Source of the DNA: Zygnema cylindricum
Taxonomy: Eukaryota > Streptophyta > Zygnematophyceae > Zygnematales > Zygnemataceae
Direction of reading: 5' to 3'
Assembly (NCBI GenBank): GCA_037447655.1
Contig: JBBHKE010001671.1
Coordinates: 186,001 to 250,000, forward strand
DNA: 64,000 nt
How positions within the stretch are numbered: the stretch's first letter is position 1; every line of letters begins with the position of its first letter. Positions 14,080 through 40,800 of the stretch are shown one piece after another. The notes beneath the pieces are model-generated. The model saw only the letters and a program-made list of their open reading frames with translations, was not told the DNA's origin and did no database searches. The position numbers and the translations under genes are program-made.

Positions 14080-15290
14080 CTAGAGCATGGAAGTCTCGTT
14101 GTCTGCTTGCCTGCAAATGGTACATTCCGTCGCCTCTGTGATTGGCATCCTCAACGGATCCATATCCTGTGACAAATCCGATAAGTAACAAGGTGCACAG
14201 TTCTTCGAATGCTCCCGAATTATCCTTGTATCCGCACCTTGCAAACCCATCATCCCGTTAGCATACATTTCCACCACACGAAGAATGTGTGGTGAAACAT
14301 CTGTGTCCAAAGTATTGAACGACTGGCGTCGGAGGTACACGTAATCGACGACCCGGTAGGATTTCTGTTGTGGCTTGTAACTGCCACTCCGCGTGGTGGC
14401 GAACCTTAAAGTATCGTGATGCTGGACAATTTGCAAATTATCAAAAGCCATAGGCATCTCACGGGCGAAAAGCAAAGCACGACGAGTTAGTTCTTCCAAA
14501 AATATGGTGTGAAACATTAGAGGCAAAGGTAAACTTGCCGCTTTTTGAATATTCCGACCGAGTAAGGGTGCCTGACCGAAGAGAATATAGTACGGGCTGA
14601 AATTAGCCAAGCTAGCCTGTACGGACATCCGGTAGCTCATAGTGATATAACCCAATGATTCATCCCAGACAGAGATGTGTTTCTCTAAACAATGCTTTCG
14701 GAGAGCCCGCTTAAAAGTTTGGACAGCTCGTTTTGCCAAGCCATCGGCTTGTGGGTGATCACGACTCGTCCGGCGATGATCAATTAAAGCTTTATCCAAC
14801 ATCTCTTGAAATTCCCAGCGGAACTCCGTACCCTGGTCCGTGAGAACCTCCGCAGGAGCTCTATAACGCATGAGAACGTGCTCTTTAAAAGCAACGGTGA
14901 TCAATTTAACAGTCTTGTGGGGAAGAGCAACCACCTCTACCCACTTGCTAAAATTTTAAATCATTATCATGATGTATTGTTTCCCCTTTCGAGATAAGGG
15001 AAACAGTCCAGCCAGATCGACGGACCAGCGATAAAACAATCCTCTGATGGGCAATGGCTGTAGTGACACCTGCCGATTAGAGAAAGAGGTGCGTAGCCGG
15101 TCGCATGTGGCGCATTTGTGGAGAATGGCCGCCACATCCGCTTGCATTCCGGACCACCAATAGCGTGCCTCTACAAGGCTCAAAGTACGCTTGGTCCCAT
15201 AATGGCCAAGCTCGGTATGTATCTGCTCAATCAAGGACAAGCGTTCGGTTAGACAGGGGACATATCGATGACTGTTGTCTGGGAGCCATC
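14080..15290 (-). pseudogene. Gypsy integrase
   Basis: The zinc finger is readable as HTELGHYGTKRT...CATCDR (HHCC type) near 15080-15215. The core continues with SVDLAGLFP (first Asp), LTDQGTEF (second Asp) and HPQADGLAKRAVQTFK. In the last block the catalytic Glu of the usual AER triplet is Lys. A frameshift near 14935-14960 splits the core. The C-terminal part includes YRVVDYVYLRRQS and ends with a Cys pair (CAPCY and CTICR). No chromodomain was recognised. The enzyme would insert cDNA; the Glu-to-Lys change and the frameshift make it inactive. Confidence 0.85.
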
Positions 15291-16809
15291 GAACTAAAGA
15301 TCCGCCGAGCCACAGATAATTTTTGGCTTGTTTCTTTACTTGGTCTTCCTTCTCGGCGGTAGTACCGAGCCGAAAGGTTTGAAAGGAAAGGAAGAGGATT
15401 AATGGGCCGTCGCGCCACGGATCTGTGGCCGGCCGAGGGTGAGGCATAGAAGAGAGACAGTAAGTGATATAGGAACCTGCCGACATGGCCGGTACCTCGT
15501 CCTCGTCGAAATTTTGCCGGAAACCGTTATCGGTGGTCCGAGGTAGTGGGTTCCGAGATATCGCGTCGGCGTTCAAGCTTAACAAACCGGGCTGATGGAT
15601 GATCTCAACGTCGTACTCTTGTAAAATTAAAGCCCATCGGGCAAGCTTCCGTGAAAGCTTATTGTTGGTCATCAACCAATGAAGGGGTTGATGGTCAATT
15701 AGGAGCGTGAATGGCTTGCCGTACACATAATGTCGAAAATGAACAATACCCCATACCGCAGCGAGGCATTCACCCTCGTAACTACTGTAATTAGATTCAG
15801 CTCGGTTATTGCTCCGGCTAACGTATGCCACTATGTATTCCTCTCCATTCAATTCTCTTTGCGTTAAAATAGCCGCAATGCCTGGCTTCCCGAAATCGGT
15901 TTTTAGGCAAAATGGAAGCTTGTGGTTAGGAGGTCGCAGAATGGGAGCGCTGGAAAGGGCGGTTTTCAGTTTTTGAAACGCTTCTACTTGGGCGGGTCCC
16001 CAAACAAAAGGCACTTCTTTTTTGAGAAGGTCATTAAGGGGAGAAGCAATCGTACTAAAATTCAGTACAAATCGACAGTAATAATTGGCTAATCCGAGAA
16101 AAGCCCTCAGACTAGTGAGATCTGTAGGGGCCGGTGGTTTAGTGATAGCCTCTACCTTAGCTTCCAAGGGAGTGATGCCCTCAGCTGAAATAAAATGGCC
16201 GAGATAGGGCATTCCCTTTGCACCGAAAGTACACTTGGATGGGTGACACTTCAGCCCCACTTTCTTTAACTCGATGAGAACCCACTCAATATGGCGGGCG
16301 TGCTCTTCAACCGTGGCGGAAGCGATTATCAAGTCATCGATGTAGCACCGGGCAAATTTACATCCACCCAGCACCGAATCCATGACTTTTTGAAACACGG
16401 CGGGTGCGTTCTTAAGACCGAAAGGCATGACTGCCCATTCCCACCGACCATCACTGCCCCAAAATGCAATTTTATGCCGATCTCTTTCCTCGATTTCAAT
16501 CTGGTTAAACCCTTGACGCAAGTCAAGAATGTTAAAGAACTTTGCACCACCTACATGGTCAGATATTTCCTCCGCTAGAGGCATAGGGTGGCGGTCTTGA
16601 ACGGTCCGGTCATTGAGCTCTCGGTAGTCCCCACACATTCTTCGCTCAGTAAAATTTCAGTCCGAATCTTTCTTCCTAGGCATGACTGTGGGGGCGGCAA
16701 AGGTGGAATCCGACCGATAGATTAGACCGGCTTCTTCCAATTCTGCGCACCTTTTGTCCACCATCTCCCTTTCCATTTCGGAGAGACGGTGTTTCAGCTT
16801 AAAGATAGG
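15291..16809 (-). pseudogene. Gypsy reverse transcriptase and RNase H
   Basis: Conserved RT blocks: CGDYRELNDRTVQDRHPMP, FNILDLRQGFNQIEI, FGLKNAPAVFQKVMD and the active site CYIDDLIIAS, then YLGHFISAEGI and LRAFLGLANYYCRFV. RNase H follows with LKTDFGKPG, SSYEGECLAAVW, LLIDHQPLHWL and SLNADAISR, so the Asp/Glu/Asp/Asp set is recognisable. From the CGDYREL block the frame is open for about 560 codons into the integrase zinc finger. The extreme RT N-terminus (16640-16809) has one stop near 16660 and another at about 16808. This is the best preserved part of the Gypsy pol. Confidence 0.92.
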
Positions 16810-17379: not shown

Positions 17380-18370
17380 TACAAGGTCGAGACCTAAGAC
17401 AAATGATAAAGACTGAGGGTCCATGACCCTACCCAACAAAGTACAACGCTGTCTTTCTGTAAGGCCGGGGACCACAGTAGTGCCTGGAATAAAATGCATG
17501 AGATGCTCCCGTTTGTGGCCGTAGGCTCCTCTAACTCTCTAGTGACATTATTCGAGAGCATGCCTAGAACGTTATGAGAGTATGCATGGGAATAAGTGTA
17601 AGACACTAAAGTAGGAAGGACCTTGAGGGGCTGGCTAGGTACATTAATGCTGTAATTCGGAGGGTAGTCAGATTAGACACATGATTGGACTTGGTGGAGG
17701 GGAAGTAAATGTTGTTGTATGTTAAATGGAGGATGCATTTCAAATGATTGTTCATTGGCCTAGCTTCGCTTAGCTTCTTGCATGATAGTTTGGGTTGCTT
17801 CTGCGGTCTATTTTAGACCAAAGAACAACACTAAGGACCCATGCTGAGCGGCATCAATAATTAGCGGGGGTCCAACAAGGTGTTCTATGCGCTTATAGTC
17901 AGCCAAAACTGTAGGCGGAGGATCATTATAAGCTGCGACGTTCTCTAAAATGTATCCGACAGGCTTTGCCATGTTTTGAAGAAAATGAATGACCCTCAAA
18001 ATCTCAAAAAACAATTTGGTACAAGGATCCCCCAAACCAAGACCTTTGCCAGCCCGAGACATGCCTTGACACTCCCACCCCCCGAAAACAAGGTCTATCG
18101 GTTCGACATCCCGTAGATGATGATTACTAAGGATGCGGATGTCTTGAGGAAGAGCAGTATGTATGTGTAGAAAGGCTGACTGTGAAAACAACTATGGATA
18201 TTGTGAATGCAGGAGATTACAGTGGTGCAATTGTGCTTTTCTAGCTAATGCATCAATTTCTACTGCATAGTAGTAACGCATGAGGAGACCATTTCGTAAA
18301 CATGAAAATAGTGAATTTTCGATCCCAACGAATAGATGTAAAATAATGACCCCGTCCGTATGAGGACTCA
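17380..18370 (-). pseudogene. C5-cytosine DNA methyltransferase domain within Gypsy Pol
   Basis: The domain transfers a methyl group from S-adenosylmethionine to cytosine C5 in DNA. Motif I reads LHLFVGIENSL (about 18310-18340), then an AVEIDALARKA motif II-like block. Motif IV reads DLVFGGWECQGMSRAG, with the candidate catalytic Cys codon at 18069-18071; Glu precedes Cys where Pro is usual. Motif VI is YILENVAAYN (Glu at about 17945). DAAQHGS near 17835-17850 resembles the start of motif VIII. LEEPTA (about 17540), then MHFIPGTTVVPGLTERQR and LLGRVMDPQSL (about 17390-17500) match motifs IX and X. One in-frame stop at 18192-18194 and apparent frameshifts near 17800 and 17505 inactivate this copy. 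It lies between protease and RT in the same orientation and chain of frames, so it belongs to the polyprotein and is not a neighbouring gene. Confidence 0.85.
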
Positions 18371-19384
18371 GCTGTACGGGCTTCCAACTGATAGGCAGGA
18401 AACCCAAAGGATCGGTTGCAACAGTAGGTATAGGAGGGATAGTTGTTAATGGAATATATAATGTGGACTTATAAATGTTGTCAAATGTGTGAGAATTGAT
18501 AATAAAACCTGGTTCTGCAAAGAGCTCGGATAAGGGGGAACTATCCGGTATAATTTCTTCGGCCGTAAGAGAGTGGAAAATTTCCTCCCCAACGGAGTTC
18601 CCTAAAAATGCGAGAAGAGCCGTAGCTGAGTGAGCCATAGTGGGCAAAGGTTGGCGGGCTGAAATGAGAGGGAGGCAGATTTTGCGCTCCGGAAAGTGTG
18701 TCGGTCGGTAAGAAAATGTTTGGTGATGCATATCCACGCTACCGCCAATTCGGAATATAACATGTTGGCCCACCAAACACTCATAATCGTCACATTTAGT
18801 GACCAATACACTGACGGCAATTTCAACGAACTCATTTTCGGTTCCTGTCTGAAACCGAAAGATGAGCGGGTCTTTTATGATTCGGAGGACCGGCTCCGAG
18901 GTTCCAGCCGAAGTAAGAAGGCGGGTAGTGGTTGCTTGAAGCTTGTTTGCTGTCAGACCAAGCTTGAGCGCAAATTCGGATCCGAGGATCACGGGTTTGG
19001 CCCCGGTGTCGATGAGAGGAAGAGTGGGGTGAACACCGTTCACTAAGAATGATCCACGAGAGTTATTAAGGAAACTGATATGGGGATCGAGATTACGACG
19101 CTCTTCCGTAGTAACCGGTTGAACCGCTGAAAGACTGCGGTTTAACAGCAGAGCCGTCAAAGCAGATGTTGCTGCAATCTCATCAACGAGGGGAAGGGCT
19201 TTCAGTACATCCTCCAACATCGCTGAAAGAATACTTAATCGATCCTTCAACCGATGAGCCTCATGAATAGTGCCATCCAATATGGTTAGTGCCTCTACGG
19301 CGATGGCAGGAGCGGTTTCTGGTAGAGAAGGCAGAGGCTCTTTTGCAAATGAGAGTGGGACACGAGAATTTTGTAATTTGCCCA
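18371..19384 (-). pseudogene. Gypsy protease and flanking Pol N-terminus
   Basis: The open frame contains a retropepsin site, LPLIDTGAKPVILG, with the Asp codon at 19008-19010, followed by SEFALKLGL. Upstream is an Ala/Leu-rich helical stretch (EALTILDGTIHEAHRLKDRL). Downstream are about 150 residues with CDDYECLVGQHVIFRIGG, typical of the second half of a retroviral-type protease. The frame extends rightward past 19384 only into Copia B2 LTR sequence, so codons beyond 19384 are not Gypsy. The natural upstream continuation is the gag end at 40801, in a compatible frame. The protease would process the polyprotein. Confidence 0.85.
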
Positions 19385-20440
19385 TGTAGAAATTAATTGT
19401 CCATTTAAAGTATTTTCTAGGTCTAAATAGAAATATAGAAAGAAGCCGAGGCAGTCTACCTCTAACTTCTCTCTCCAACTCTCAAACTTGTTGCAGTCAC
19501 TGCGAAATTGGAGAGGGAGCGAGAGCCATGGCTACCTAGGCTATCCAAAAGTTTACGGGGATAATATATTAGTTAGGGGTTTATTTACTAAAAGGAAAGT
19601 GCCGGATACAGGATTTGATCCTGGTACCTACCGACCGGCAGAGAGCAGGTAGCCGGTAGCCTTAACCGTTAAGTCTTTATCGAGTGTTACGTAATATAGG
19701 GTTTGATATTTAATTAAATATTATCAAAGTAGGAAAATTCATTTAACTATAAGTGTTTACGGGAGACATAGATCGATAATTGTAAAAGTACGGATTGCAA
19801 TACGGATAAGAAACCAATACCGCGCATTTGTTTCTTTAAAGAAAAGAATACCGCACATGTAATTATTACGGCTATGATTAAATATGAATTAAATCAGACA
19901 GCCAGAATTAACGCCGAGATCGCGGAAGAGGATTTTGGCGGTTTGTGGTCATCGCCACATCGGATGACACGTGGCAGAATTACATTGGATCGCGGCATCT
20001 CCGAGGATTACGGGAGCGAATCCGAACATACCATGCGTCGACATTTAGGCCATGTCGTACAGTGTTGGTACAGAAAGTACACCGGCAGCTATACTTTTGT
20101 GTACGGAACTGCATTTTGATTGGCTCCCTACATCAGTAGATAGAGTGTGTGAGAGAGATAGGACTTAGAAAAATTAGGAGATATGACCCTCTCTCCCAGA
20201 GAGCTTCTGTACAAAAGGTCAATTTTGACCCTCCATAACTTACTGCTCAAGGGAGCAAATTCAGAGATTCTTTTTGCTATCGACTCACGGGAGTCTTGCT
20301 TTCACAGGGAAGAAGTTGGTCAGAGTTATTGTCTGCCAGGGTGGTAGTTGTTTTTTCTGAAACACAAAGGGGTCAGGGTTATCCTAGAGGCTTCTTGGAA
20401 GCTGTCCACTCTCAGGAATTATGGAGGTCTCAAAGTTTCA
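19385..20440 (+). repeat. B2 5' LTR
   Basis: 1056 bp, TGTAGAAATT...CAAAGTTTCA. It has the U3 hairpin near 19460-19530, a tRNA-like block near 19600-19675, and a G-box at about 19968; the second G-box is mutated to CATGCGTC. Confidence 0.88.
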
Positions 20441-20449
20441 GGTTATAGG
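20441..20449 (+). promoter_or_regulatory. B2 primer-binding site, cut by the D1 insertion
   Basis: GGTTATAGG follows the LTR directly; the rest (ATGGGCCCACC) is at 25483-25493. The family D solo LTR inserted inside the site and duplicated five bases (ATAGG and ATGGG). Confidence 0.8.
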
Positions 20450-21212
20450 TGTTGTCCATAGCCTATTTCAGCCATGGATTACTCACGGAAACACCCATAG
20501 ACTACCTCAAAAACAGTTGTGTTTCAGACAGCACAGATTACTCCAAACTGAACAGAATCACCTCAAACTGTACCAATAAGCATTATACCATATACACTAT
20601 TAACTCCCAAAGTTACAGCTAAATCCATTAAGGCATCTAGAAGATATAGGCTCCAGAGTTTCACAAAAACAGCTGACAAAATCACAAACTAACCACTTAC
20701 ACTGCTCAAAGAATCTTACAGAGATTCTTGAATACAATGAAACTTCACACACATCCATATTCTATATCATTGAATAACTCCTAAAAGTTTCACATGAAAG
20801 CACCAAACAAAATGATCACACCAACAGGTCAAAGATGCAGAAAACAGTTTGTCATTGCTTTGATAAACTTGACTACGATGCATAAAATAATCTAAGTCCT
20901 GCAAGTTATACTCACTCTACGGAGGCATACCATCCGTACTGTATCACTCTAATAAACTAATTAGTCAAAAGGACAAACCTCTGTTTTACAGAATATTTAC
21001 ACCGCACTCTTCGTATGTCAGAAACCAAGCTACTACTAAGCAACTACTAAGCTACCACTACCGTACAATCATCATTACTCGAAATCTATCCTAGTCATAT
21101 TATCTGCAGCTGCGCTAGCTGCGCTGGCTGCGCTTGTCCGTACGGATCATACAAATAGCCGCAGCTATGTGACTTAACTACATCGCAGCTCCGCCGTAAC
21201 GCCGGCGCTTAT

Positions 21213-22403
21213 TGTTGAAATTTAAGTATTTGCTAGGTCTAGAGTTTGTAAATATAAAAGGCAAAAAGGGGACAGTGAGAGCCTGCCTCTAACTCTTCAC
21301 TCAAGTCCCCACACTTGTCGCAGTCACTGAAGACTTGAGGAGGAGTTGGATCCATGGATGCCTAGGCTGTCCAAAGAGGACAGGAAGGCCAATCTTGATG
21401 GAGTCATCTAAAATATTGACGGATCCAGGATTTGATCCTGGTACCTTTGTTCCGTCCAACTGGCCGTTAGCTTTAACCAATATGACTAGAGCCAGTGCTA
21501 AAGTATATTAGGTATTACAGATATTTATATTATTACACGTAGACTAGTTCGTATAACGGGAAATAGATACGCACTACATAGATACAGTTTTGTATAGTAC
21601 GGAGTACGATTTAATGTATTTTATGAAACGGATACCGCGCATTTGTTTCGAACGCGAAACAAATATCGCGCGCGTATTTTCAACGACTAAAATTGTATCC
21701 GGTTTGATCGGACGGCCACGATAGGTGCCGCGATCACGGAACATGTACTTTTGGCGTTTTTCATCCATCGCCACGTCATATGACACGTGGCGAGACAATG
21801 TTGGATTGCGGCGACTCCAGAGATTGCGGAAACAAATCCGGCTATGACACGTGTCGACAATTTACCCATGTTGTACAATGGCCGTACATGAAGTACACCG
21901 GCACCTGTACTTTTCTGTACGACACAGTAATTTGATTGGTGCCGTACTTCAGTAGATAGAGTTTTAGAGGGGGAATAGGACTTAGAAAATTTTGGGTAGA
22001 TAGCTGTCTCTCCCAGAGAGCACCTTGTATAAATGGCAAACTTTGATCAGCCATAACTATCAATTTACTTGACCATTTTCAGTGATTCTTTTTGCTGCGC
22101 ACTCAAGGGAGTCCAAGCTACACAGGGGTGTAGTCGGTCAGAGTTTTTGTCTTCCAGGGTGGCTACATTTTAAAGGGAAAGTCAAAGTGGGTGAATGTGT
22201 CCAAATCTCATATTCTAACTTTGCATTCTGTGGTGGAACTGACCACACAGAAAGTGTTATTTCACAAGGGTGAATCTATATTGGGGTTTTGATTGTAAAG
22301 GGGTCAGTCACTTGGGTTTATATTAACTTGGAGTCGGCACTATCTAGATTAGCTTCTTTTGGATCTGCATACTCTGAGGGCCAATGGAGGTCTCAGAGTT
22401 TAA
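21213..22403 (+). repeat. E1 5' LTR
   Basis: 1191 bp, TGTTGAAATTTAAG...CAGAGTTTAA. It carries a hairpin (21289-21349), a tRNA T-arm-like block (near 21428-21450), two G-boxes about 60 bp apart (near 21784 and 21847) and a TATAAAT box at 22028-22034. The closing bases hold the gag ATG. Confidence 0.9.
22028..22034 (+). promoter_or_regulatory. TATA box in family E LTR
   Basis: TATAAAT in the context CACCTTGTATAAATGGC, conserved at 24907-24913 and, on the minus strand, at 26354-26360 and 29602-29608. It lies about 370 bp before the LTR end. The homologous place in B LTRs reads GTACAAAAGG, so B copies may have lost this box. Confidence 0.65.
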
Positions 22404-22702
22404 GGTTATGGGCCCACCATCTAGGGACACCTATGGTGAGGGGAGCTAGGCTCTCAGCTATGGTACCACATGTAGGGATTAAAACTGAAGAAAATGACAC
22501 AAAAATATGGGAATACAAAAACACTATAGCAAAACATCTCATACTTAGATATGTGTCTAAGTCGATAGCTATCACTCTTTTAAGTCTAACCAAAGCTTCA
22601 GATATATGGGAAGCACTAATTCAGATTTATAAGAGTGAGACTATTCAGAGGCAGCAATTAGTAAAACAGGAAATAGATGCCTACGTTTATAAAGGCGGGT
22701 AG
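22384..22702 (+). pseudogene. Gag N-terminal part, E1
   Basis: It starts at an LTR ATG and reads through the PBS. Compared with E2, about 240 bp are deleted right after the first Gag block (junction near 22425-22430), shifting the frame. The UBN2-like region (AKHLILRYVSKSIAITLL, DIWEALIQIYKS) is intact in the next frame. An extra G in a G-run near 22695 (GGCGGG against GGCGG in E2) shifts the frame again. Confidence 0.8.
22404..22418 (+). promoter_or_regulatory. E1 primer-binding site
   Basis: GGTTATGGGCCCACC immediately after the 5' LTR, identical to the B1 site. Confidence 0.8.
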
Positions 22703-24053
22703 CATGATAGAGTTTTGCAATGATATTGCTGCGTTATACGTTGAGCTTACTAGTGCGGGATATGTAGAATCTGAGGAGAGTAAGATTAATACACTACTTA
22801 TGAAACTCCCAGATGAGTACGAAAACATCATTTGTCGTATGCAGGCAATAGATGGCTCCTCATGGACTTGGAGCTTTACCATGGGGATAATTCTTGTGAG
22901 GGAAAGCACTTTGGAGCTTCGTAGGGGAAAGGACAGGGTCAATGCATTTTCAGCTGGTGGTGATTGGCGGAAGCGTGATGAGAGGAACGGCGGTCACGAG
23001 CGGAAGCGTGATGAGAGGAACGGTGGTGACGAGCGGAAGCGTGATGAGAGAAAGAAAGACAAAGGTAAACCTTATCGGAACTTTGGTGGAAAGAGAGGGA
23101 GAGGAAAAGGCACGGGAGCTTTGAAAAAAGGGGTTTGCTTCTTTTGTAGGGAACCTGGTCATTATATGGAGGAATGCCCTTGTTTGGAAAAACTTAGAAG
23201 TAGGAATGTGGATGAGGAGGACGAAGAGGAAGAGGAGAAAGAGGATGAAGAAAAATTGGAGCTTTTTCACATTGGTAGAATGGGGAAGAGAGAAAAGTAC
23301 ACAGAAATTGGACGAAGGCAACAATGTGCTTTTGGAGGTATAAGGGAAGTAAAGAGAGAGGAGATACTTGAGGAAGTTCAAAATATTGAGGATAGTTTCA
23401 TAAATATTTTGGAAACAGAAAACTGGTCGGAAAGGGAGACTTCAACGGATTCCGAGGAAAGGGGAGAATTAATTCTAGAGGGGGTTTTAAAGGATAGGGG
23501 AGAAGAGAAATATTTGACTAAAGGTTTAGGGGAGAAAAAATATTTATTGGGAATTAAAATAGAAAGTGATAGTGGAAAGAATTCCATGGGAGACAGTGAG
23601 GGAAGTTCAGAAAATGGGGTAATTATCATGGATAAAAATATGAGTACGGAAGATGTAGATCTTATGAGGAACTTAGTGGGGACTAGTGGTTTTTGGGAAT
23701 ATTTGGAGGTGGATGGATTTGACATCACTACTTGGTGTGATGTCTCTTGTGAAGATGTGCCTGTAAAAGGGTTATCATCCGGGTATGTGTTGCAGGTTGG
23801 GGATGGGGCTGATTGTTGGAAATGCAAAATAGAAAGTAGATTTTGGTTGGATGAAAAGGGAAGGAGGTGGATAAAATCTTTGATCGAATTTTTGAAAAGT
23901 GGCATGCAAAATAAAATGTATGATCGACAAGATGAAATTATTTTTGGTCATCTAATACACTTTCTTAAATATAAAAATATTCGCTTGAAGCTTCATGAAG
24001 GAAAAAGGAAAAAGGAAAGAAAAATATATTATATATGTATTTGTTGTTTTTGA
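22703..24053 (+). CDS. Gag C-terminus, CCHC knuckle and collapsed Pol remnant, E1
   Basis: An open frame of about 450 codons. It holds the end of the capsid-like region (SMIEFCNDIAALYVELTSAG, LPDEYENIICR), a 33-bp tandem repeat encoding (D/H)ERKRDERNGG three times, a knuckle CFFCREPGHYMEEC and an acidic run. It then resumes matches to B pol in order: QQCAFGG (just before protease), GEKKYLLGIKIE (end of RT), ITTWCDVSCEDVP and GYVLQVGDG (RNase H start), WIKSLIEFLKSGMQNK and KNIRLKLHEGK. Protease, integrase and the RT catalytic core are gone, and the RNase H Glu block is lost. The frame remains open, which suggests selection on Gag or recent decay only. Confidence 0.85.
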
Positions 24054-24079
24054 TGGGAGTTGAAAGTAAGTGGACTAGA

Positions 24080-24091
24080 AAATAAGGGGAG
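24080..24091 (+). promoter_or_regulatory. E1 polypurine tract
   Basis: AAATAAGGGGAG abuts the 3' LTR. It is identical to the tract in B2, consistent with mobilisation by B-type reverse transcriptase. Confidence 0.75.
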
Positions 24092-25282
24092 TGTTGAAAT
24101 TTAAGTATTTGTTAGGTCTAGAGTTTGTAAATATAAAAGGCAAAAAGGGGACAGTGAGAGCCTGCCTCTAACTCTTCACTCAAGTCCCCACACTTGTCAC
24201 AGTCACTGAAGACTTGAGGAGGAGTTGGATCCATGGATGCCTAGGCTGTCCAAAGAGGACAGGAAGGCCAATCTTGATGGAGTTATCTAAAATATTGACG
24301 GATCCAGGATTTGATCCTGGTACCTTTGTTCCGTCTAACTGGCCGTTAGCTTTAACCAATATGACTAGAGCCAGTGCTAAAGTATATTAGGTATTACATA
24401 TATTTATATTATTACACATAGAGTAGTTCGTATAACGGGAAATAGATACGCACTACATAGATACAGTTTTGTATAGTACGGAGTACGATTTAATGTATTT
24501 TATGAAACGGATACCGCGCATTTGTTTCGAACGCGAAACAAATATCGCGCGCGTATTTTCAACGACTAAAATTGTATCCAGTTTGATCGGACGGCCACGA
24601 TAGGTGCCGCGATCACGGAACATGTACTTTTGGCGTTTTTCATCCATCGCCACGTCATATGACACGTGGCGAGACAATGTTGGATTGCGGCGACTCCAGA
24701 GATTGCGGAAACAAATCCGGCTATGACACGTGTCGACAATTTACCCATGTTGTACAATGGCCGTACAGAAAGTACACCGGCACCTGTACTTTTCTGTACG
24801 ACACAGTAATTTGATTGGTGCCGTACTTCAGTAGATAGAGTTTTAGACGGGGAATAGGACTTAGAAAATTTTGGGTAGATAGCTGTCTCTCCCAGAGAGC
24901 ACCTTGTATAAATGGCAAACTTTGATCAGCCATAACTATCAATTTACTTGACCATTTTCAGTGATTCTTTTTGCTACCGACTCAAGGGAGTCCACGCTAC
25001 ATAGGGGTGTAGTCGGTCAGAGTTTTTGTCTGCCAGGGTGGCTGCATTTCAAAAGGAAAGTCAAAGTGGGTGAATGTGTCCAAATCTCATATTCTAACTT
25101 TGCATTCTGTGGTGGAACTGACCACACAGAAAGTGTTATTTCACAGGGGTGAATCTATATTGGGGTTCTGACTGTAAAGGGGTCAGTCATTTGGGTTTAT
25201 ATTAACTTGGAGTCGGCACTATCTACATTAGCTTCTTTTGGATCTGCATACTCTGAGGGCCAATGGAGGTCTCAGAGTTTCA
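24092..25282 (+). repeat. E1 3' LTR
   Basis: 1191 bp, the same length as the 5' LTR, with only scattered single-base differences seen (for example GTCGCAG against GTCACAG in the hairpin loop). Confidence 0.9.
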
Positions 25283-25482
25283 CTTATTCCAACATTCCGT
25301 TTATTTTACATCGGATCCCTTCGCGATCCGCCATCCATTCGTCACAACTTTTTCACACCACTCAATTATATCAATCCGTTCGCTCCCCCAATTCGTAAAT
25401 CTATTCAAACCTCCATATTAAATCTAATTAGCAGTTACGGGCAAACTGTCTCGTACACACGAAACTGACTTTCAAAACAACA

Positions 25483-25979
25483 ATGGGCCCACCCTCTAAG
25501 GTACCAATCATTAATGGAATTGGCTTCATATACTGGGAAAGTATGATCATAGGAGCTCTATGCGAAAAAAGGTTTTGGGGATAGTGAGTGGACGGTTGGG
25601 GCGTCCATCAAGTCTTGGAATTCCTCCAGGGTTTGGAGGAAGCACATTCACCACGAAAGAGGATCCACCTTCAAAAGAGGAAACAAAACAACGAGAGGTG
25701 GTGGACAAAGGAAAGGAGAAGGAGGCGACCACACCAATAGCAACTGGTTCGGCATTCATGTCACCTATTCCGAGGAACGAGGAGAATGATACTAAAACCT
25801 GGGACTTCAACAATATGGCGGCAAAGCACTTCATCCTACGCCATCTCACTCAAGGACTTGCATGTCCTCATTTGCAGGTACAAAGGGCATCCGATCTTTG
25901 GATGGCTCTCATAGAGATGTACAGAAGTGGTACGATTCAGCAACAATAGTTGGCTGATCACAAAGTTAAGGAGTATATA
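25483..25979 (+). pseudogene. B2 Gag, first segment
   Basis: It begins at the PBS remnant with MGPPSKVPIINGIGFIYW and continues through the Lys/Glu linker to the KVKEYIYN region, where E2 inserted. Stops near 25590 and 25947 and a frameshift near 25570 interrupt it. The sequence closely follows B1 gag. Confidence 0.82.
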
Positions 25980-26941
25980 TACAATGAAACTCTGAGACCT
26001 CCATTGGCCCTCAGAGTATGCAGATCCAAAAGAAGCTAACCTAGATAGTGCCGACTCCAAGTTGATATAAACCCAAATGACTGACCCCTTGACAGTCAAA
26101 ACCCCAATATAGATTCACCCCTGTGAAATAACACTTCCTGTGTGCTCAGTTCCACCACAGAATGCAAAGTTAGAATATGAGATTTGGACACATTCACCCA
26201 CTTTGACTTTCCCTTAGAAATACAGCCACCTTGGCAGACAAAAAATCTGACCGACTACACCCTTGTGTAGCCTGGACTCCCCTCAGTCCGCAGCAAAAAG
26301 AATCACTGTAAATGGTCAAGTTAATTGATAGTTATGGCTGCCCAAAGTTCGCCATTTATACAGGGTGCTCTCTGGGAGAGGCAGCTGCCTACCCAAATTT
26401 TTTCTAAGTCCTATTCCATCTCTAAAACTCTATCTACTAAAGTACGGCACCAATCAAATTACTGTGTTGTATAGAAAAGTACAGGTGCCGGTGTACTTTA
26501 TGTACGGCCATTGTACGACATGGCCAAAATGTCGACACGTGTCATATCCGGATTTTTTCCCGTAATCTCCGGAGTTGCCGCAATCCAATGTAGTGTTACC
26601 ACGTGTCACTCAATGTGGCGGTGATCGCAAACCGCCAAAATCGTACGCCGCGATCTCGGCATCTTTCGCGGCCGTCCGATCAATTTTGGATTTCAATCGT
26701 GGCCGTCATAAATACCTGCGCGGTATTCTTTCCGGCATCAAACAAACTGCGCGGTATTTATTTCGTATACGTACCGTACGTCGTACTTTACACAACTGTT
26801 TCTATGGATTATGCATATAGTTCTAGTTTAATGAATTAGTGTTATTGTCACAGTTTAAATAAATATCATACCCGTCAATTTGTAATACAATTTAGACTAT
26901 CTGGATATGACTACCGGCTACTGCGGTTGTGACACATGGGA

Positions 26942-26970
26942 GGTACCAGGATCAAATCCTGGCTCTGTCA
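26942..26970 (+). other. Initiator-tRNA-like T-arm in the E2 LTR
   Basis: GGTACCAGGATCAAATCCTG continuing GCTCTGTCA. It forms a CCAGG/CCTGG stem with a 7-base ATCAAAT loop, close to the initiator tRNA-Met T-arm (loop AUCGAAA, then CUCUGAU). The second E2 LTR has it at 30190-30218. Confidence 0.55.
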
Positions 26971-27041
26971 AAACTACTTTTAGAGAAAACCCCCTATAAA
27001 AAAACTGTGTGTCTCCCTCTAGACAGCACAGGCAGCCATGC

Positions 27042-27101
27042 CTAACTCCTCCTCAAGTCTTCAGTGACTGCGACAAGTGTGGGGACTTGAGGAGGAGTTA
27101 G
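27042..27101. other. Perfect 18-bp hairpin in the family E U3
   Basis: Arms 27042-27059 and 27084-27101 (CTAACTCCTCCTCAAGTC and its complement) around a 24-base loop containing the sequence read on the minus strand as CACTTGTCGCAGTCACTGA. It is repeated at 30290-30349; imperfect versions are in E1 and in B LTRs. Confidence 0.75.
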
Positions 27102-27194
27102 AGGCAGGCTGTCAATATCTACTATTTTGCTTTTTATTTTGCAATCTCTAAACCTAGAAAATACTTGAATTCCAACACTCCCCTTATTATCTAG

Positions 27195-27226
27195 TCTATA
27201 TATATATATATATATATATATATTTT
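27195..27226. repeat. TA microsatellite in E2
   Basis: An uninterrupted (TA)n tract near the 3' end of the E2 interior, followed by a T/A-rich stretch. Confidence 0.8.
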
Positions 27227-27229
27227 ATT

Positions 27230-28156
27230 TTATTTTTTCAACTTCCACAAACAAGTAAACAAACATCCCCTCCCCTTTTTCCTTTTCTTTTTCCTTTTTC
27301 CTTTTCCTTTCATAAAACTGAAGTATTTAACACAGTGCATTAAATTAACTGAAATAATAGTTGCATCACACATTTTATTTAACATCCCATTTTTCATAAA
27401 TTCGAGCAAAGATTTTATCCACTTCATCACTTTTTTATCCACACACCAACAGATTTCCCTCTTGCGATCCAAACAGCCAGCCCCATCCCCAATCTGCAAC
27501 ATACACCCAGATGCTAACCCTTTTACAGGCACATCTTCACAAGTGACATCACACCAAGTAGTGATGTCAAATCCATCCACCCCCAAATATTCCCAAAAAA
27601 CACTAGTCCCCACTAAGTTCCTTATAAGATCTACATCTTTCGTACTCATATTTTTATCCATGATAGTTACCCTATTTTCTGAACTTCCCTCACTTTCTCC
27701 CATGGAATTCTTTCCACTATTACTTTCTAATTTAATTCCCAATAAATATTTCTTCTCCCCTAAACCTTTAATCAAATATTTCTCTTCTCCCCTATTCTTT
27801 GAAACCTCTTCGAGTTTCACTTCTCCCCTTTCCTCGGAATTCGTTGAAGTCTCCCTTTCCGACCAGTTTTCTGGTTCCCTATTATCTATAAAGTTATCTT
27901 GATTAATTTTATCTTTCCCGTTTTCACTTATGGATCCTAGAATTGACTTTCTCATTTCTAAGGCATACACTCTACACTCCTCGACATCCTCAAGTACCTC
28001 GTCTCTCTTTACTTCCCTTATACCTCCAAAAGCACACTGTTGCCTTCGTGCAATTACTGTGTGTTTTTCTTTCTTCCCCATACTACTAATCCGGAGAAGC
28101 TCTAAAATATCTTCATGCTCTTTCTCCTCTTCCCCTTCTTCCTCCTCATCCACATT
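27230..28156 (-). pseudogene. Collapsed Pol remnant, E2
   Basis: About 308 codons after a stop (28157-28159) where E1 has Arg. It shows the same ordered remnants as E1 (QQCAFGG, GEKKYLLGIKLE, ITTWCDVTCEDVP, WIKSLLEFMKNGM) plus an extra segment (EECRVYALEMRKSILG...) absent from E1. The start codon assigned to such a frame would be non-ATG, so it is best read as a continuation of Gag. Confidence 0.82.
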
Positions 28157-28523
28157 TCAACTTCTAAGTTTTTCCAAATAAGGGCATTCCTCCATATAAT
28201 GACCCGGTTCCCTACAAAAGAAGCAAACCCACTTTTTCAAAGCTCCCCTTTCTTTTCCTCTCCCTCTCTTTCCACCAAAGTTCCGATAAGGTTTACCTTT
28301 GTCTTTCTTTCTCTCATCACGCTTCCGCTCGTCACCACCGTTCCTCTCATCACGCTTCCGCTCATCACCACCGTTCCTCTCATCACGCTTCCGCTCGTCA
28401 CCGCCGTTCCTCTCATCACGCTTCCGCCAATCACCACCAGCTGAAAAATGCATTGACCCTGTCCCTTCCCCTACGAAGCTCCAAAGTGCTTTCCCTCACA
28501 AGAATTATCCCCATGGTAAAGCT
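28157..28523 (-). pseudogene. Gag nucleocapsid region with Arg-rich repeats, E2
   Basis: Four copies of the 33-bp unit encoding (D)ERKRDERNGG (E1 has three), then a basic KPYRNFGGKRGRGK tract and the knuckle CFFCREPGHYMEEC. A frameshift near 28450 separates it from the upstream Gag frame. Confidence 0.85.
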
Positions 28524-29252
28524 CTAAGTCCATGAGGAGCCATCCATTGCCTGCATACGACAAATTATGTTTTCGTACTCATCTGGGAGTTTCATAATTA
28601 GTGTATTAATCTTACTCTCCTCAAATTCTACATATCCCGCACTAGTAAGCTCAACATATAACGCAGCAATATCATTGCAAAACTCTATCATGCTACCGCC
28701 TTTATAAACGTAGGCATCTATTTTCTGTTTTACTAATTGCTGCCTCTGAATAGTCTCACTCTTATAAATCTGAGTTAGTGCTTCCCATATCTCTGAAGAC
28801 TTGGTTAGACTTAAAAGAGTGATAGCTATCGACTTAGACACATATCTAAGTATGAGATGTTTTGCTATAGTGTTTTTGTATTCCCATATTTTCCTGTCAT
28901 TTTCTTCAGTTTTAATCCCTATATGTGGTACCATAGCTGAGAGCCTAGCTCCCCTCACCATAGGTGTCCCTTTTTCCTTCTCCCCTATTTCCCCATCCAC
29001 GGAAAGGTTTTTCCCTTCACCTTCCGTTGCATCTGAACTCTGGATGATATTCTGGACAGTCTCAGATGATTCTCCATAGTAAGCTCCTCCAAAGCTAGTT
29101 GGCGGACATCTCACTTGTCCCGCAACAATTCCCCATAAGTGCTTCTCGAAAAGCAATCCCTCCATTGTAAACGCCCAATACGTGAAGCCTGTTCCATCAA
29201 ACATAGGCACCCTAGATGGTGGGCCCATAACGTGAAACTCTGAGACCTCCAT
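28524..29252 (-). CDS. Gag N-terminal and capsid-like part, E2
   Basis: 242 codons from an ATG 20 bases inside the 5' LTR (MEVSEFHVMGPPSRVP). It contains the Gag entry block MFDGTGFTYWAF, an acidic linker, HLILRYVSKSIAITLL, EIWEALTQIYKS and LPDEYENIICRMQAMDGSSWT. It ends at a TAG that is TGG in E1, so the natural frame went on. This is the most complete Gag N-terminus of family E. Confidence 0.88.
   Translation of the reverse strand: MEVSEFHVMGPPSRVPMFDGTGFTYWAFTMEGLLFEKHLWGIVAGQVRCPPTSFGGAYYGESSETVQNIIQSSDATEGEGKNLSVDGEIGEKEKGTPMVRGARLSAMVPHIGIKTEENDRKIWEYKNTIAKHLILRYVSKSIAITLLSLTKSSEIWEALTQIYKSETIQRQQLVKQKIDAYVYKGGSMIEFCNDIAALYVELTSAGYVEFEESKINTLIMKLPDEYENIICRMQAMDGSSWT
29218..29232 (-). 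promoter_or_regulatory. E2 primer-binding site
   Basis: Minus strand CGTTATGGGCCCACC, one mismatch (first base) from the B1 and E1 site. Confidence 0.75.
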
Positions 29253-30425
29253 TGGCCCTCAGAGTATGCGTATCCAAAAGAAGCTAATCTAGATAGTGCC
29301 GACTCCAAGTTGATATAAACCCAAATGACTGACCCTTTGACAGTCAAAACCCCAATATAGATTCACCCTTGTGAAATAACACTTCTTGTGTGCTCAGTTC
29401 CACCACAGAATGCAAAGTTAGAATATGAGATTTGGACACATTCACCCACTTTGACTTTCCCTTTAAAATGTAGCCACCCTGGAAGACAAAAACTCTGACC
29501 GACTACACCCCTGTGTAGCGTGGACTCCCCTGAGTCCGCAGCAAAAAGAATCACTGTAAATGGTCAAGTAAATTGATAGTTATGGCTGCCCAAAGTTTGC
29601 CATTTATACAGGGTGCTCTCTGGGAGAGGCAACTGCCTACCCAAAATTTATCTAAGTCCTATTCCCTCTCTAAAACTCTATCTATTGAAGTACGGCACCA
29701 ATCAAATTACTATGTCGTACAGAAAAGTACAGGTGCCGGTGTACTTCATGTACGGCCATTGTACGACATGGCCAAAATGTCGACACGTGTCATATCCGGA
29801 TTTGTTCCCGTAATCTCCGGAGTTGCCGCAATCCAATGTAGTGTTACCACGTGTCACTCAATGTGGCGGTGATCGCAAACCGCCAAAATCGTACACCGCA
29901 ATCTCGGCATCTTTCGCGGCCGTCCGATCAATTTTGGATTTCAATCGTGGCCGTCATAAATACATGCGCGGTATTCTTTCCGGCGTCAAACAAACTGCGC
30001 GGTATTTATTTCGTATACGTACCGTACGTCGTACTTTACACAACTGTTTCTATGGAGTATGCATATAGTTTTAGTTTAATGAATTAGTGTTATTGTAACA
30101 GTTTAAATAAATATCATACCCGTCAATTTGTAATACAATTTAGACTATCTAGATAAGACTACCGGCTACTGCGGTTGTGACACATGGGAGGTACCAGGAT
30201 CAAATCCTGGCTCTGTCAAAACTACTTTTAGAGAAAACCCCCTATAAAACAACTGTCTGTCTCCCTCTAGACAGCACAGGCAGCCATGCCTAACTCCTCC
30301 TCAAGTCTTCAGTGACTGCGACAAGTGTGGGGACTTGAGGAGGAGTTAGAGGCAGGCTGTCAATATCTACTATTTTGCTTTTTATTTTGCAATCTCTAGA
30401 CCTAGAAAATACTTGAATTCCAACA
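29233..30425 (-). repeat. E2 5' LTR
   Basis: 1193 bp. Hairpin arms at 30290-30307 and 30332-30349; T-arm-like block at 30190-30218; TATA box (minus strand) at 29602-29608. It differs from the 3' LTR at scattered positions. Confidence 0.9.
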
Positions 30426-31693
30426 TACAAAGGGGGGAAGATGTTGGATTTTTGCAATGAGCTTGCTACAATCTTCATAGAGATAGAGAGTGTGGGAAAA
30501 GATTTTAGTGAAAAAGAAAAGGTTAACTGTTAACTGATGAAGTTACCCGATGAGTTCGAGAACATAGTCAACCAAGTGCAGGACTTGCTAGACTCAAGGT
30601 GGATATGGAACTCAGTGGTAGGGATGATTCTTGTTCGGGAGAATACGATTGAGATCCGAAGGGGAGGAAAGAGTGGCCAAGCCTTGGCAACTGCGACCGA
30701 TTGGAGGAACAAGGATTCTCGGAAACCGGTCGGAAACTATGGGGGGAGGGAGCAAAAAAATCAGACCAACGAGTTCCGACCAAGGGCTCCCAAAGGTTTA
30801 TGTCATTTTTGTAAGAAACATGGGCACTATATGGCAGAGTGCACTAACCTAACCAAGCTTCGGTTAAAGGAGGGGCTGACCGGTGGTACCTCGAGAGGAA
30901 AGAAAAAGGCCCTTGTGACACAGGTACATGAGGCAGAATCCGAGGACGAGGACGATGAACTCCTTTTACATGGGGAGTTGGAGGCGAAAAACAAGGTCGA
31001 AATTCCACAAAGGCAGAAATGTGCTTACGGTGGATTGAAAGGTGAAACAGGCTGGATTGTAGATTCAAGTGCCTCCATGCACATGTGTAAAGATAGACAC
31101 TTGTTCACTAAGATAAGAAAGATGCCCAACGTAGAGATAGAGTACGGGGATGGGAGGATAGTTACCACTACTCTTGTAGGATCGGTAGATTTGAAAGTGT
31201 TAGTAGAAGGAAAGACATCCATAGTAACATTCTTTGATATATTGTTTATTCGAGAGCTGAACAAAAACCTCATCTCTACATCTGTATTACATGATAAGGG
31301 TTTTATTACTAGCACTAGGGAAGGAGTCTTTACTGCTAGTTTTGAGGAGGATGTCTATTTCATTGCTGAGAAAGGTAGCCATGGGATGTTTAGGCTAGTT
31401 TTAAGTAATGAAACGAAGAAACTTTATTATGCTAGTGTTCATGATATTATGATGTGGCATAAAAGGCTTGGGCATGTGAATCTAGACGATGGGAGTGGTG
31501 GAAGGGATTAAGTTCAGTGAGAGTGATAATATAAGTGATGGTAGTGGATTTGCTCAAGGTTAAACACAGATTACCCTTTCCTAAAACAGCCACCTATAAG
31601 GGAGAAAAAATTCTAGATCTAGTACACACAGATATTTGGGGACCGGCTAAAGTAACCTCACCGGGGGGGAAGAGATTTATGATGACTATAATT
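30426..31693 (+). pseudogene. B2 Gag end, protease and GAG-pre-integrase
   Basis: From about 30537 to 31511 a 324-residue frame covers LPDEFENIV, a basic linker, the knuckle CHFCKKHGHYMAEC, the acidic EAESEDEDDELL tail, the protease site WIVDSSASMHMC (Ser in place of Gly) and GAG-pre-integrase to WHKRLGHVN. A small deletion near 31485 and later stops disrupt the zinc-finger region (CSGCAQG is degraded). Family C inserted at 31693, just before the first integrase Asp region ends. Confidence 0.85.
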
Positions 31694-32383
31694 TGTTGAA
31701 GGTCATGGGCATTAAGACTCGGATGTGATCCACTCCCACTAGGAGCCACACTTGCACCAGCAGGAGCAGATGGAGCACTAGGGCTAATAGGAGCACTTGC
31801 AATAGGAGCTGAGCCATTATCAAACATGTTAGCGGAAGCAAACCCAAAGAGAAATGCCTAAAAGACTTGATCTATAGTGTAAGATATGTAACTCCAAACG
31901 AAAGAGGTATTTCAACCAAACAAACATGTACTACAAGCAAATTATAGACAATAGAGCATAAAACACCTTAAACTGCACTCAGTGCTCTCATTTCCTTAAT
32001 TCTTGTGTAGAATGTACATTCTGTATTGAATTGATCAATCCTAATTGAACTGAATACTCAAAAGATCTAGAAAACATCTAAAATATCTAGAAAACATCTA
32101 AAACGTATGTACATGGTTCACCAGACACTCTACTGACAAAAATCTTAGTGTTTGGACCAGAATTGTCCACTAAAAATATCTATACCCTAAAAATCCGGGT
32201 GATTTTTATCACGTCTACATTCATTGGCGGCCCTACACACTAATTAACTTAAAGATATCAATTCGTGTAGATACTACAAAAAATCCACACTAAATTTGGT
32301 CAATATTGAACAGTTCGTATTCCAAAAATATTCTAAGTTTTAGACTCAAATTTATAAGGCTTACTAAAGCTTACTTTTCAATA
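31694..32383 (-). repeat. Family C 3' LTR
   Basis: 690 bp, TGTTGAAGGTC on the plus strand to ...TTTTCAATA. By eye about 20 positions differ from the 5' LTR. It still carries the ATG and about 44 codons of the Gag N-terminus (from 31827 on the minus strand), which then run into flanking DNA. The polypurine tract CTAAAGCCTAAGGGGAG is at 32384-32400. Confidence 0.9.
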
Positions 32384-32405
32384 CTCCCCTTAGGCTTTAG
32401 AAGGC

Positions 32406-34556
32406 TTACTCACTTATACCACATGCTTTTCTGCAGTACTCCAATTTAGGAGCGGGAAGGGCTTTTGTCAACATGTCCGCAACCATTTTCTCATCAGGCA
32501 AATAACAAAGTTTTACCACATTTGCAAAGACTTTCTCACGTACCAAATGTAGCCGAATGTCCATATGTTTACTCTTGAAATGGTGACTTGGGTTTGTAGC
32601 CACAGAAATGGCTGCTTGATTGTCGCACCACATTATTTGTGTCCCGTGTTGCGTAAAACCCAATTCTTGAAGAAATGCCTTAATCCATAGCAACTCTTTC
32701 AATGCTGCGCTCGCAACCATGTATTCAGCTTCCATCGTAGATTGAGTCGTGACCTTTTGAAGTTTACTACTCCAACTACAAGTACCACTTCCAATCTGAA
32801 TGACATACCCAGTTGTAGACTTCCTACTAGGCACATCACCATAGCTAGCATCACTCCAAGTATTAATGCTAACCTTGTCCCCTCCCAAAGTAAGCCAAAG
32901 ATTTCTAGCCCCAACAAGATACCTTAACACCCTTTTTGTAGCCTCCCAATCTCTCTTTCGTGGATTTTGCAGACTTCTGCTCAATACACCAACAGCTGCA
33001 GCTATATCGGGCCTAGTACAATTCATGAAGTAAATTAGACTTCCTACTACTTGTCTGTAGGGTACTTGGGACATAAATTTTTGCTCTTCTGCACTGAGTT
33101 CCTCATCTATTATGACTGCAAACTCATGCTCCATTCCTTCAAGTTTTTGCTTATACTCCATAGGAGTTGCACAACCTTTGGCATCAGCCAAGCCAAATTT
33201 TTCCAACAAGTTTCCTATCGCTTCTTTTTGAGTTAGTCTAATTATTTTCTTTTCTCTATCTCTTTCAACTTGTATTCCAAGGATATATTTTGTCTCACCC
33301 AAATCCTTCATTTCAAATTTTGAATTAAGAGCCTGTTTTACCCTAGCAATTCCCTCTTTGTTCCTACTAATTAGCAGCAAATCATCAACATACACGGCAA
33401 TGAATATCACCTCATCACGATTATCACCACACATCACATATACTGAATGATCTGAGCTAATTCTAGTAAATCCTAATCCTGTCAAGAACTCATCTAACTT
33501 TCGGTTCCACTGTCTAGGGGCCTGTTTTAGGCCATACAAAGATTTTAAAAGTTTGCAAACAAGATTTTCTTTTCCTGCTTCCTCATAACCCTCTGGTTGC
33601 TTCATATAGATGACCTCATTTAAATCACCATGCAAAAATGCAGTTTTGACATTCATTTGGTGGATGTCAAAATCCTCTATAGCAGCTAATGTAAGTAGGA
33701 TGCAGACAAATGGAAACCTTACAACCGGTGAAAAAGTTTCTTCATAATCTATCCCCTCCTTTTGATTATATCCCTTAGCAACCAAGCGAGCCTTATACAT
33801 GTCTATGGTATTATCTGGGTTCAATTTTAATTTAAACACCCATTTACTTCCAATAGCCTTTCTTCCTGGAGGAAGTTCCACCAGATCCCATGTTGGGGCC
33901 TCCATGATGGACTTCATTTCCTCATTGACGGCTTCCACCAAATGTTCCCTTTCATTACTCGAAAAAGCTTCTTTCAATGTTAAAGGCTCTTCTACGTGTG
34001 CAGAATGAGCAAAGGCTGCACTTTCTCCCCTGAGTCGTGCACTTCGCCTAACTCCACCTAGAAATTCTGTCGCTAGTATAGATGGTTGGTTCCTCCTCCT
34101 CGATACATGTGATTTTTTTTGTAATTCAGTTTCGGCTTGAGGTAGAGGAGAGTCTACAATTCTTTCAGGCATGACACTTCCTCTTTCTGGTGGAGAAGAT
34201 GATTCTAAGTCATTTTGAGTTAAACTAGATGCATTTTCTACATTTTTCTTGAAAAACATAGAATTTTCCACTAAAAAGATATAATCAACACTTCTATCTT
34301 TCTTTTCATCTGTATGCTGACTAAATACATCTATTCCTTTTCCCTCATCCTTCACTATGATGTTTTTGGCTACCACAACTCTATTTCTCATAATGTCATA
34401 AACTTTATAACCCTTGGCATGATCATCATACCCTAAAAATATGCCTGGTATGCCTTTTGGCTCTAATTTCCATTTTTTTGGATCATTATCTAGCATAAAT
34501 ATCTTACTTCCAAAAACTTTGAAAAAACGTACATCTGGTTTTTGTCCTGTCCACAT
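32406..34556 (-). CDS. Copia integrase C-terminus, reverse transcriptase and RNase H, family C
   Basis: 716 codons without a stop. It starts in the integrase C-terminal block (KPDVRFFKVFGSK, GIFLGYDDHAKGYKVYD), passes an acidic linker, then RT with [64 protein letters not shown] and the active site FIAVYVDDLLLIS, then KYILGIQVERDREKK. RNase H follows with NTWSDASYGD, STMEAEYMVA, IMWCDNQAAISV and ADMLTKALPAP. The natural stop is six bases before the polypurine tract. All catalytic residues expected for RT (YVDD) and RNase H are present, so the domain looks potentially functional. The upstream end connects to integrase through a frameshift at 34556-34570. Confidence 0.93.
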   Translation of the reverse strand: MWTGQKPDVRFFKVFGSKIFMLDNDPKKWKLEPKGIPGIFLGYDDHAKGYKVYDIMRNRVVVAKNIIVKDEGKGIDVFSQHTDEKKDRSVDYIFLVENSMFFKKNVENASSLTQNDLESSSPPERGSVMPERIVDSPLPQAETELQKKSHVSRRRNQPSILATEFLGGVRRSARLRGESAAFAHSAHVEEPLTLKEAFSSNEREHLVEAVNEEMKSIMEAPTWDLVELPPGRKAIGSKWVFKLKLNPDNTIDMYKARLVAKGYNQKEGIDYEETFSPVVRFPFVCILLTLAAIEDFDIHQMNVKTAFLHGDLNEVIYMKQPEGYEEAGKENLVCKLLKSLYGLKQAPRQWNRKLDEFLTGLGFTRISSDHSVYVMCGDNRDEVIFIAVYVDDLLLISRNKEGIARVKQALNSKFEMKDLGETKYILGIQVERDREKKIIRLTQKEAIGNLLEKFGLADAKGCATPMEYKQKLEGMEHEFAVIIDEELSAEEQKFMSQVPYRQVVGSLIYFMNCTRPDIAAAVGVLSRSLQNPRKRDWEATKRVLRYLVGARNLWLTLGGDKVSINTWSDASYGDVPSRKSTTGYVIQIGSGTCSWSSKLQKVTTQSTMEAEYMVASAALKELLWIKAFLQELGFTQHGTQIMWCDNQAAISVATNPSHHFKSKHMDIRLHLVREKVFANVVKLCYLPDEKMVADMLTKALPAPKLEYCRKACGISE

Positions 34557-34569
34557 TTCGTAAGGTGTT

Positions 34570-37202: not shown

Positions 37203-37207
37203 CAATT

Positions 37208-39729: not shown

Positions 39730-39742
39730 AAAATAAGGGGAG

Positions 39743-40795: not shown

Positions 40796-40800
40796 GCCCA

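Follow-up and report, generated by a model that had tools for sequence, protein, structure and literature searches.

Can a Ty3/Gypsy retrotransposon carry a cytosine DNA methyltransferase as a working part of its polyprotein, and what would the enzyme do for the element? The question is raised by a 64,000-nucleotide stretch of the Zygnema cylindricum genome (the window), in which a preliminary description made from the sequence alone had placed a C5-cytosine methyltransferase (MT) within a Gypsy polyprotein. That proposal is supported by a Pfam match of the domain and by copies elsewhere in the genome that carry it. Elements equipped with just the kind of enzyme by which they are silenced are informative about the co-evolution of host methylation and transposons.

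Retrotransposon-borne MTs had been mentioned in the preliminary description as reported from some algal and dinoflagellate lineages, and this kind has indeed been described, as KnitGypsy-Dnmt3 of Klebsormidium nitens (de Mendoza et al., 2018; PMC5890265). From the available part of that paper, such elements were already known from a green alga; the present results show that the MT is long conserved and occurs in distant green algae, within an element whose end repeats hint at an unusual mode of insertion.

The interrupted element in the window

A degraded Gypsy pol lies on the minus strand at 19370-13960. The gag remnants at 42492-40745 belong to the same family, so that some 21 kb of Copia-rich sequence (approximately 40744-19385) divides the Gypsy element in two. 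The chain of protease, MT and reverse transcriptase (RT) first noted therefore stands, within an element larger than was noted, which adds the gag remnants, the Copia block and a PHD finger after the integrase. The features are as follows:

43971..44353, minus: remnants of the 5' A repeat (43971-44022 and 44333-44353), by comparison
41284..42492, minus: gag, N-terminal part, with 7 stops, by alignment
40745..41320, minus: gag, C-terminal part, with 5 stops, by alignment
19385..40744, no strand: nested block with Copia elements and LTRs between gag and pol, by repeat comparison and alignment
18876..19043, minus: retropepsin-like aspartic protease (DTGA), PF13650, by Pfam, at the cut-off
17395..18377, minus: DNMT3-class C5 cytosine MT domain, full length, dead, aligned to the open copy L031
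18069..18074, minus: Glu-Cys of motif IV (GGWECQG), Cys codon 18071-18069, from the sequence and alignments
17937..17951, minus: motif VI (ILENV), read in the sequence
15613..16638, minus: RT and RNase H (PF00078, PF17917), by Pfam
14160..15270 (ends approximate), minus: integrase, H2C2 zinc binding and rve DDE core, by alignment to L031
13990..14124, minus: PHD finger at the C-terminus of pol, with one stop (14082), by alignment to L031
13836..13881, minus: end of pol and start of a purine-rich tract, matching L031, by alignment

Aligned to L031, the window MT spans all 321 residues of the domain (18377-17395). Motifs I, IV, VI and IX/X lie where they had first been read, with Glu before the catalytic Cys, and motif VIII is not readable. 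The damage had been put at one stop and two frameshifts; it consists of four stops (18194, 17810, 17762 and 17675) and one frame break near 17515. The profile search proposed at the outset matched PF00145 to the stop-free piece 18191-17808 (1.2e-9, 38.5 bits, cut-off 22). Pfam also found the H2C2 zinc-binding domain, and the rve core scored under its cut-off (8.7e-05, 23.2 bits). As read from these domains, the window almost certainly holds a dead, Copia-interrupted Ty3/Gypsy copy of the KnitGypsy-Dnmt3 kind, with the MT between protease and RT and the PHD finger after a DDE integrase.

The repeats at 12180-13250 and 19385-20450 were considered as the Gypsy element's own LTRs and rejected, as both are Copia LTRs. 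Further Copia LTR copies lie at 21213-22400 and 24092-25291, these two being 99% identical over 300 nt, and a layered nest of Copia elements surrounds and fills the Gypsy element. Just past the 3' end of the Gypsy remnant, at 13447-13606, there is an array of a 20-bp unit (six overlapping 60-nt matches).

The intact form is given by L031 (C1344), in which 2395 codons are open in a single frame with all domains, namely gag with a zinc knuckle, protease, MT, RT, RNase H, integrase and PHD finger (PF00628, 1.5e-9); the zinc knuckle and protease score under their cut-offs. The genome holds at least three MT families, A (that of the window), B and C, and the MTs of the first two share 42% identity across 322 residues.

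Class, active site and role of the methyltransferase

In a profile search of the PDB, the MT matched DNMT3A at 1.4e-20, HaeIII/HhaI at 1e-8, DRM2 at 3e-7 and DNMT1 at 0.01. These other classes, about 12 or more orders of magnitude weaker than DNMT3A, were rejected, and no chromomethylase chain was found among the best 60 of 79 matches. A structure predicted from 26 rows reached a pLDDT of 93.6 and supersedes an earlier model from 11 close rows (58.6); in fold comparison of the model (VIA), the first 35 of 50 rows were DNMT3 chains. Motif order in the aligned copies is linear (I-IV-VI-VIII-X) and not rearranged as in DRM. Animal DNMT3A/3B, the best PDB match by both sequence and fold, share the catalytic fold and motif order, but identity in fold alignments is only 20-26%, no PWWP or ADD domain was found in the element MT, and its motif IV reads W-E/P-C-Q against S-P-C-N. 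Phage C5 MTs matched the window piece at 2e-10 at best, and a scan of IMG/VR found no relative of the element. Judged by sequence and predicted fold, the domain is of DNMT3 class with an unusual active site, which is an assignment to a class and not proof of a DNMT3 enzyme.

Pro is the usual residue before the catalytic Cys. This Pro-Cys pair of the DNMT3 family is present in families B and C and replaced by Glu-Cys in family A. The Glu, singled out early as distinctive, is not private to the window copy, occurring in all seven family A copies (two of them near-identical) and in 19 of 36 aligned MTs, one further MT having Ser. The substitution could alter or abolish activity; on the MT tree, however, Glu and Pro interchange five times, which suggests that both forms work. 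The Cys, the EN pair of motif VI, the R-x-R and residues in the end motif are invariant across 11 aligned copies. For DNMT3 enzymology, these elements offer natural Glu and Pro variants at the position before the catalytic Cys.

Constraint on the MT was gauged between two family A subfamilies, represented by L031 and L038, for which silent sites are saturated (pS 0.82) and dN/dS can thus only be bounded. Non-synonymous differences (pN) are 0.062 in RT, 0.091 in integrase, 0.133 in MT, 0.146 in PHD, 0.192 in gag, 0.241 in protease and 0.260 in the linker, so that by this measure the MT is held more strongly than gag and protease and less strongly than RT and integrase. The dN/dS proposed in the preliminary description, computed with copies containing stops included, has a median of 0.109 across three family A pairs, of which two are near-duplicates, and of 0.221 across 106 pairs from families B and C (range 0.082-0.779). 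After prior removal of four duplicate loci, pairs outside dS 0.05-2 or with fewer than 150 codons were left out, which kept 3 of 21 pairs in family A and 106 of 253 in families B and C. As judged from these substitution patterns, the MT has evidently been under long-term purifying selection.

The young copies C1063 and C2234, with A repeats 99.6% and 99.1% identical, have frame breaks in the MT. A broken MT among near-identical young copies counts against its being required in each of them, and may mean that the enzyme is unneeded in cis, is supplied in trans, or was broken after insertion. The loci L070, L071 and L072 (upstream of RT in C2495, C1063 and C2234, respectively), three young family A copies, have single-base frame breaks around MT motif IV, which differ yet cluster, and their remaining gag-pol is mostly open where read; a hotspot, misassembly or selection disfavouring the MT could each account for the clustering. 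L088, L090 and L091 are other young copies, with breaks elsewhere.

Overall, the observations are probably best explained by an element of the KnitGypsy-Dnmt3 kind with a self-methylating MT and a tethering PHD finger. The MT would be packaged together with RT and integrase and would methylate the element's own cDNA, or the freshly inserted copy. New copies would arrive already methylated, as host DNA is, and so would not be recognised as foreign, while the PHD finger would tether the integration complex to some histone H3 state. The methylation step taken alone is a serious candidate, at somewhat less than even odds. In the available part of the source, de novo CG methylation was shown for the MTs of SymbioDIRS-Dnmt3, whose authors suggested cDNA self-methylation, and the K. 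nitens MT gave no methylation in yeast, a result that the authors call inconclusive (PMC5890265).

That inactivity in yeast would also fit an MT that does not act on element DNA at all, being either a weak or altered Glu enzyme working on RNA or a structural or DNA-binding part of Pol; an RNA substrate was raised by de Mendoza et al. for a LINE version (PMC5890265, available part). The frequent absence of the usual Pro points the same way. We nevertheless regard this as unlikely, as the catalytic Cys and the other motif residues listed above are invariant, the repeated interchange of Glu and Pro suggests that both work, and constraint on the MT lies between that on integrase and that on protease.

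A similarly doubtful alternative is that the MT acts on the host: it would mark the site of insertion or chromatin close by, the PHD finger serving as reader, and would thereby silence the new copy or its rivals and limit damage to the host. The PHD finger in the same Pol speaks for it. Among database relatives, 21 MT-bearing proteins have an integrase match and 17 of them carry the finger, against none of 13 proteins without MT (it is missing in P0003, P0011, P0012 and P0013, of which at least P0012 ends early). Its PDB matches include PHF12, BAZ2B, KDM5, PHF21A and ATXR5, several of which we take to be readers of unmodified H3 tails. One would, however, expect a domain of the polyprotein to act within the particle or the integration complex.

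Relatives and copies

Protein searches with the degraded window piece as query gave no match; with open copies as queries, 43 proteins were found, 30 of which have an MT of the element kind by BLAST. MT-bearing proteins include those of Closterium sp. NIES-53/54, K. nitens and Haematococcus lacustris. A protein labelled Mesvir1, taken as Mesostigma viride, has the MT alone, with no element shown, and a Haematococcus protein (P0021) combines RT and PHD with an MT in which no motif IV is aligned. Two domain orders occur. The MT precedes RT in the Zygnema genome, in Closterium and in P0001 and P0003, and lies between RNase H and integrase in, for example, P0004-P0010 and P0021. For P0014, P0016, P0017, P0018, P0020 and P0023, the order was labelled by hand as MT after RNase H; in P0014, P0017, P0018 and P0020 the RT match is confined to the segment that follows RNase H.

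The MT tree separates the two domain orders with 100/100 support, with 4 of its 36 rows of no known order, and the RT tree has the same deep split. In the latter, all 18 rows with an MT fall into a single clade (99), apart from the 12 Gypsy rows that lack one; these 12 stem from the same open-copy search and do not sample Gypsy fairly. The clade is split again by order (99 and 81). In the integrase tree, rows with MT before RT form one clade (99) and the other order forms a grade, with P0004 beside that clade and P0023 outside. P0021 (motif IV unaligned) and P0002 (too short) were left out of the MT tree and P0043 out of the integrase tree. K. nitens P0036 groups with the MT-before-RT rows (100/100); its stem is long and attaches next to families B and C with 94/87 support.

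The simplest reading of these trees would be one old capture of a DNMT3 and a PHD finger by a Gypsy lineage, followed by one move of the MT within Pol. As the trees hold no cellular DNMT3 rows, the donor is not placed, and two captures or horizontal spread would be alternatives. It is rather improbable that the two orders stem from separate DNMT3 captures by sister Gypsy lineages; the exact split of the MT tree by order would be expected in that case too, and an MT tree with no cellular DNMT3 row leaves room for it, but the single RT clade of MT-bearing rows, the W before the motif IV pair and the PTL-like target-recognition stretch that both orders mostly share, and the PHD finger in both all favour a single capture. 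On these data, what had been described as acquired within the Klebsormidium lineage appears to be an ancient lineage in which two domain orders and a histone reader occur.

The available part of the KnitGypsy-Dnmt3 description (PMC5890265) agrees with the present elements in a DNMT3-class MT within the Pol ORF of an LTR Gypsy element, without introns and under purifying selection, and in a DIRS-like repeat arrangement with Gypsy domain content (Fig. 4 legend); P0036, a partial protein, also belongs to the same MT clade. The K. nitens row has Pro in motif IV, in contrast to the Glu of family A, and the three or more MT families, target duplications and primer site are found here in addition. 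The main text of PMC5890265 does not mention a PHD finger. Within a limited literature search, neither the PHD finger nor the permuted integration was found in print; the Glu, how widely the elements are spread and the mechanics of their repeats also go beyond the portion of that description available. Some DNMT3s in LTR Copia and DIRS elements have also been reported from streptophytes and dinoflagellates (PMC12344493, seen in part).

Copies with the same domain order, for which the preliminary description had recommended a search, were sought in the 352.8-Mb assembly (2689 contigs). PF00145 gave at least 123 scored places among 782 candidates, the L031 MT at least 124 among 1847 and the L031 RT at least 104 among 4385; these lists overlap and contain decayed pieces, and their sizes are lower bounds for matches rather than counts of whole elements. 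An MT match of any length lies within 4 kb upstream in 45 of the 104 RT places (paired using the L031-MT list and 11 of the 123 rows of the PF00145 list). Reading 18 of the remaining 59 revealed at least 312 of the 321 MT residues in 12, 257 in one and at most 81 in five, which are truncations or deletions. The MT is thus matched at 58 of the 63 RT places checked (of 104 listed) and mostly or wholly missing at five.

Among 30 PF00145 loci, the MT stands before RT in 24 and after it in none, which makes the order the same in all 24 whose stretch holds both; five stretches have no RT match, and L007 has no MT of the element kind but a host chromomethylase-like exon. MTs in many same-order copies, open ones such as L031 included, together with relatives elsewhere and the PF00145 match, rule out a chance match or copy-specific insertion, and leave a host gene capture or chance insertion private to the window copy, which has nothing in its favour beyond the lone window copy, with practically no credibility.

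Three pairs of loci on different contigs (L008/L009, L019/L020 and L022/L023) have equal MT identity scores and are perhaps uncollapsed haplotypes, which would inflate copy counts. The L007 exon is nearest to 9mvy, 7ubu and 4fsx in the PDB (8e-28, against 7e-12 for the next, DNMT1 chains); 4fsx is presumably maize ZMET2. A RuBisCO large subunit was not found in the assembly. Chlorophyll a/b-binding proteins gave 88 matches in the genome, with arrays on both strands in C519 and C2590. The best of those searched (L044) matched 9vfj_2 (LHCI-2, two stretches), then 7xqp, 8htu and 8c29, then flowering-plant LHCII, all before 6kac; we take 7xqp and 8htu to be moss, 8c29 spruce, the chains that follow flowering plants and 6kac Chlamydomonas. 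Together with the chromomethylase-like exon, these matches make a streptophyte host likely.

Terminal repeats and integration

L031 has the arrangement A (931 bp), coding region, B (242 bp), A, B, in which the A copies are 100% and the B copies 99.6% identical. Of ten family A copies with 3' ends read, six have B-A-B (L031, L032, C561, C449, C2234 and C1063), four of these with a whole 5' A; neither repeat was found in C2577 and C750, and only parts in C744 and C1042. No B-A-B was found in the stretches read of the family B copies L033 and L034. Element ends are TGTC..GACA, flanked by 4-bp target duplications in L031 (TTGG), C1063 (TTGT) and C2234 (TAGA), and in C449 three of four letters agree.

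These ends (TG..CA, with a target duplication in three of four copies), the order of protease, RT, RNase H and integrase, and the DDE integrase are those of Ty3/Gypsy. A DIRS/PAT element is ruled out by the rve integrase, by the target duplications, and by the lack of any PF00589 (tyrosine recombinase) match in the pol ORFs of L031, L033 and L034. SymbioDIRS-Dnmt3 of Symbiodinium resembles the present elements in a DNMT3 beside RT in Pol and in A-coding-B-A-B repeats, but has a tyrosine recombinase in place of the DDE integrase and 4-bp target duplications found here (PMC5890265, available part).

In five copies GACA-GC-TGTC links the first B to the second A, this joint being one base shorter in C561, and a G-rich (purine) tract precedes the first B. 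Directly after the first A, four of five copies carry a segment complementary to a portion of A, 18 nt long in L031 and C561 and 14-15 nt in C1063 and C449; none was found in C2234. The 18-nt stretches of L031 and C561 differ by one letter, and each pairs with its own A. From the purine tract before the first B and the primer site after the first A, the LTR expected from reverse transcription is B-GC-A. The joint of the last A and B contains two or three G in L031, C561 and C2234, lacks them in C1063 and C449, and carries a deletion in L032; this variation could come from slippage in the G run or from later deletions.

Integration through the circle junction is a route long set aside for retroviruses. 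The repeat structure suggests that a DDE integrase is able to work from a circular intermediate. The provirus may be a circular permutation, in which the integrase would open a circle with two LTRs at the palindrome (GACA-GC-TGTC) within one of them and so leave an A-coding-B-A-B copy; the last A/B junction would then be the LTR-LTR joint of the circle, variable between copies. The whole picture, of a self-primed, circle-integrating and self-methylating element with a PHD reader, in a lineage older than the split between Haematococcus-type and streptophyte-type elements, is put forward tentatively, as less likely than not; horizontal spread between the two types would also be compatible with the data.

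Gypsy elements of the Tf1/sushi type are self-primed. The present elements resemble them in a primer site just after the 5' repeat, complementary within the repeat over 14-18 nt, and differ in the permuted repeats, the MT and the PHD finger; this complementarity makes self-priming a candidate here. In L033, two weak matches (67-70%, about 450 nt) link the 5' and 3' regions, and in C449 the A copies align at 80% only, the B copies being 96% alike.
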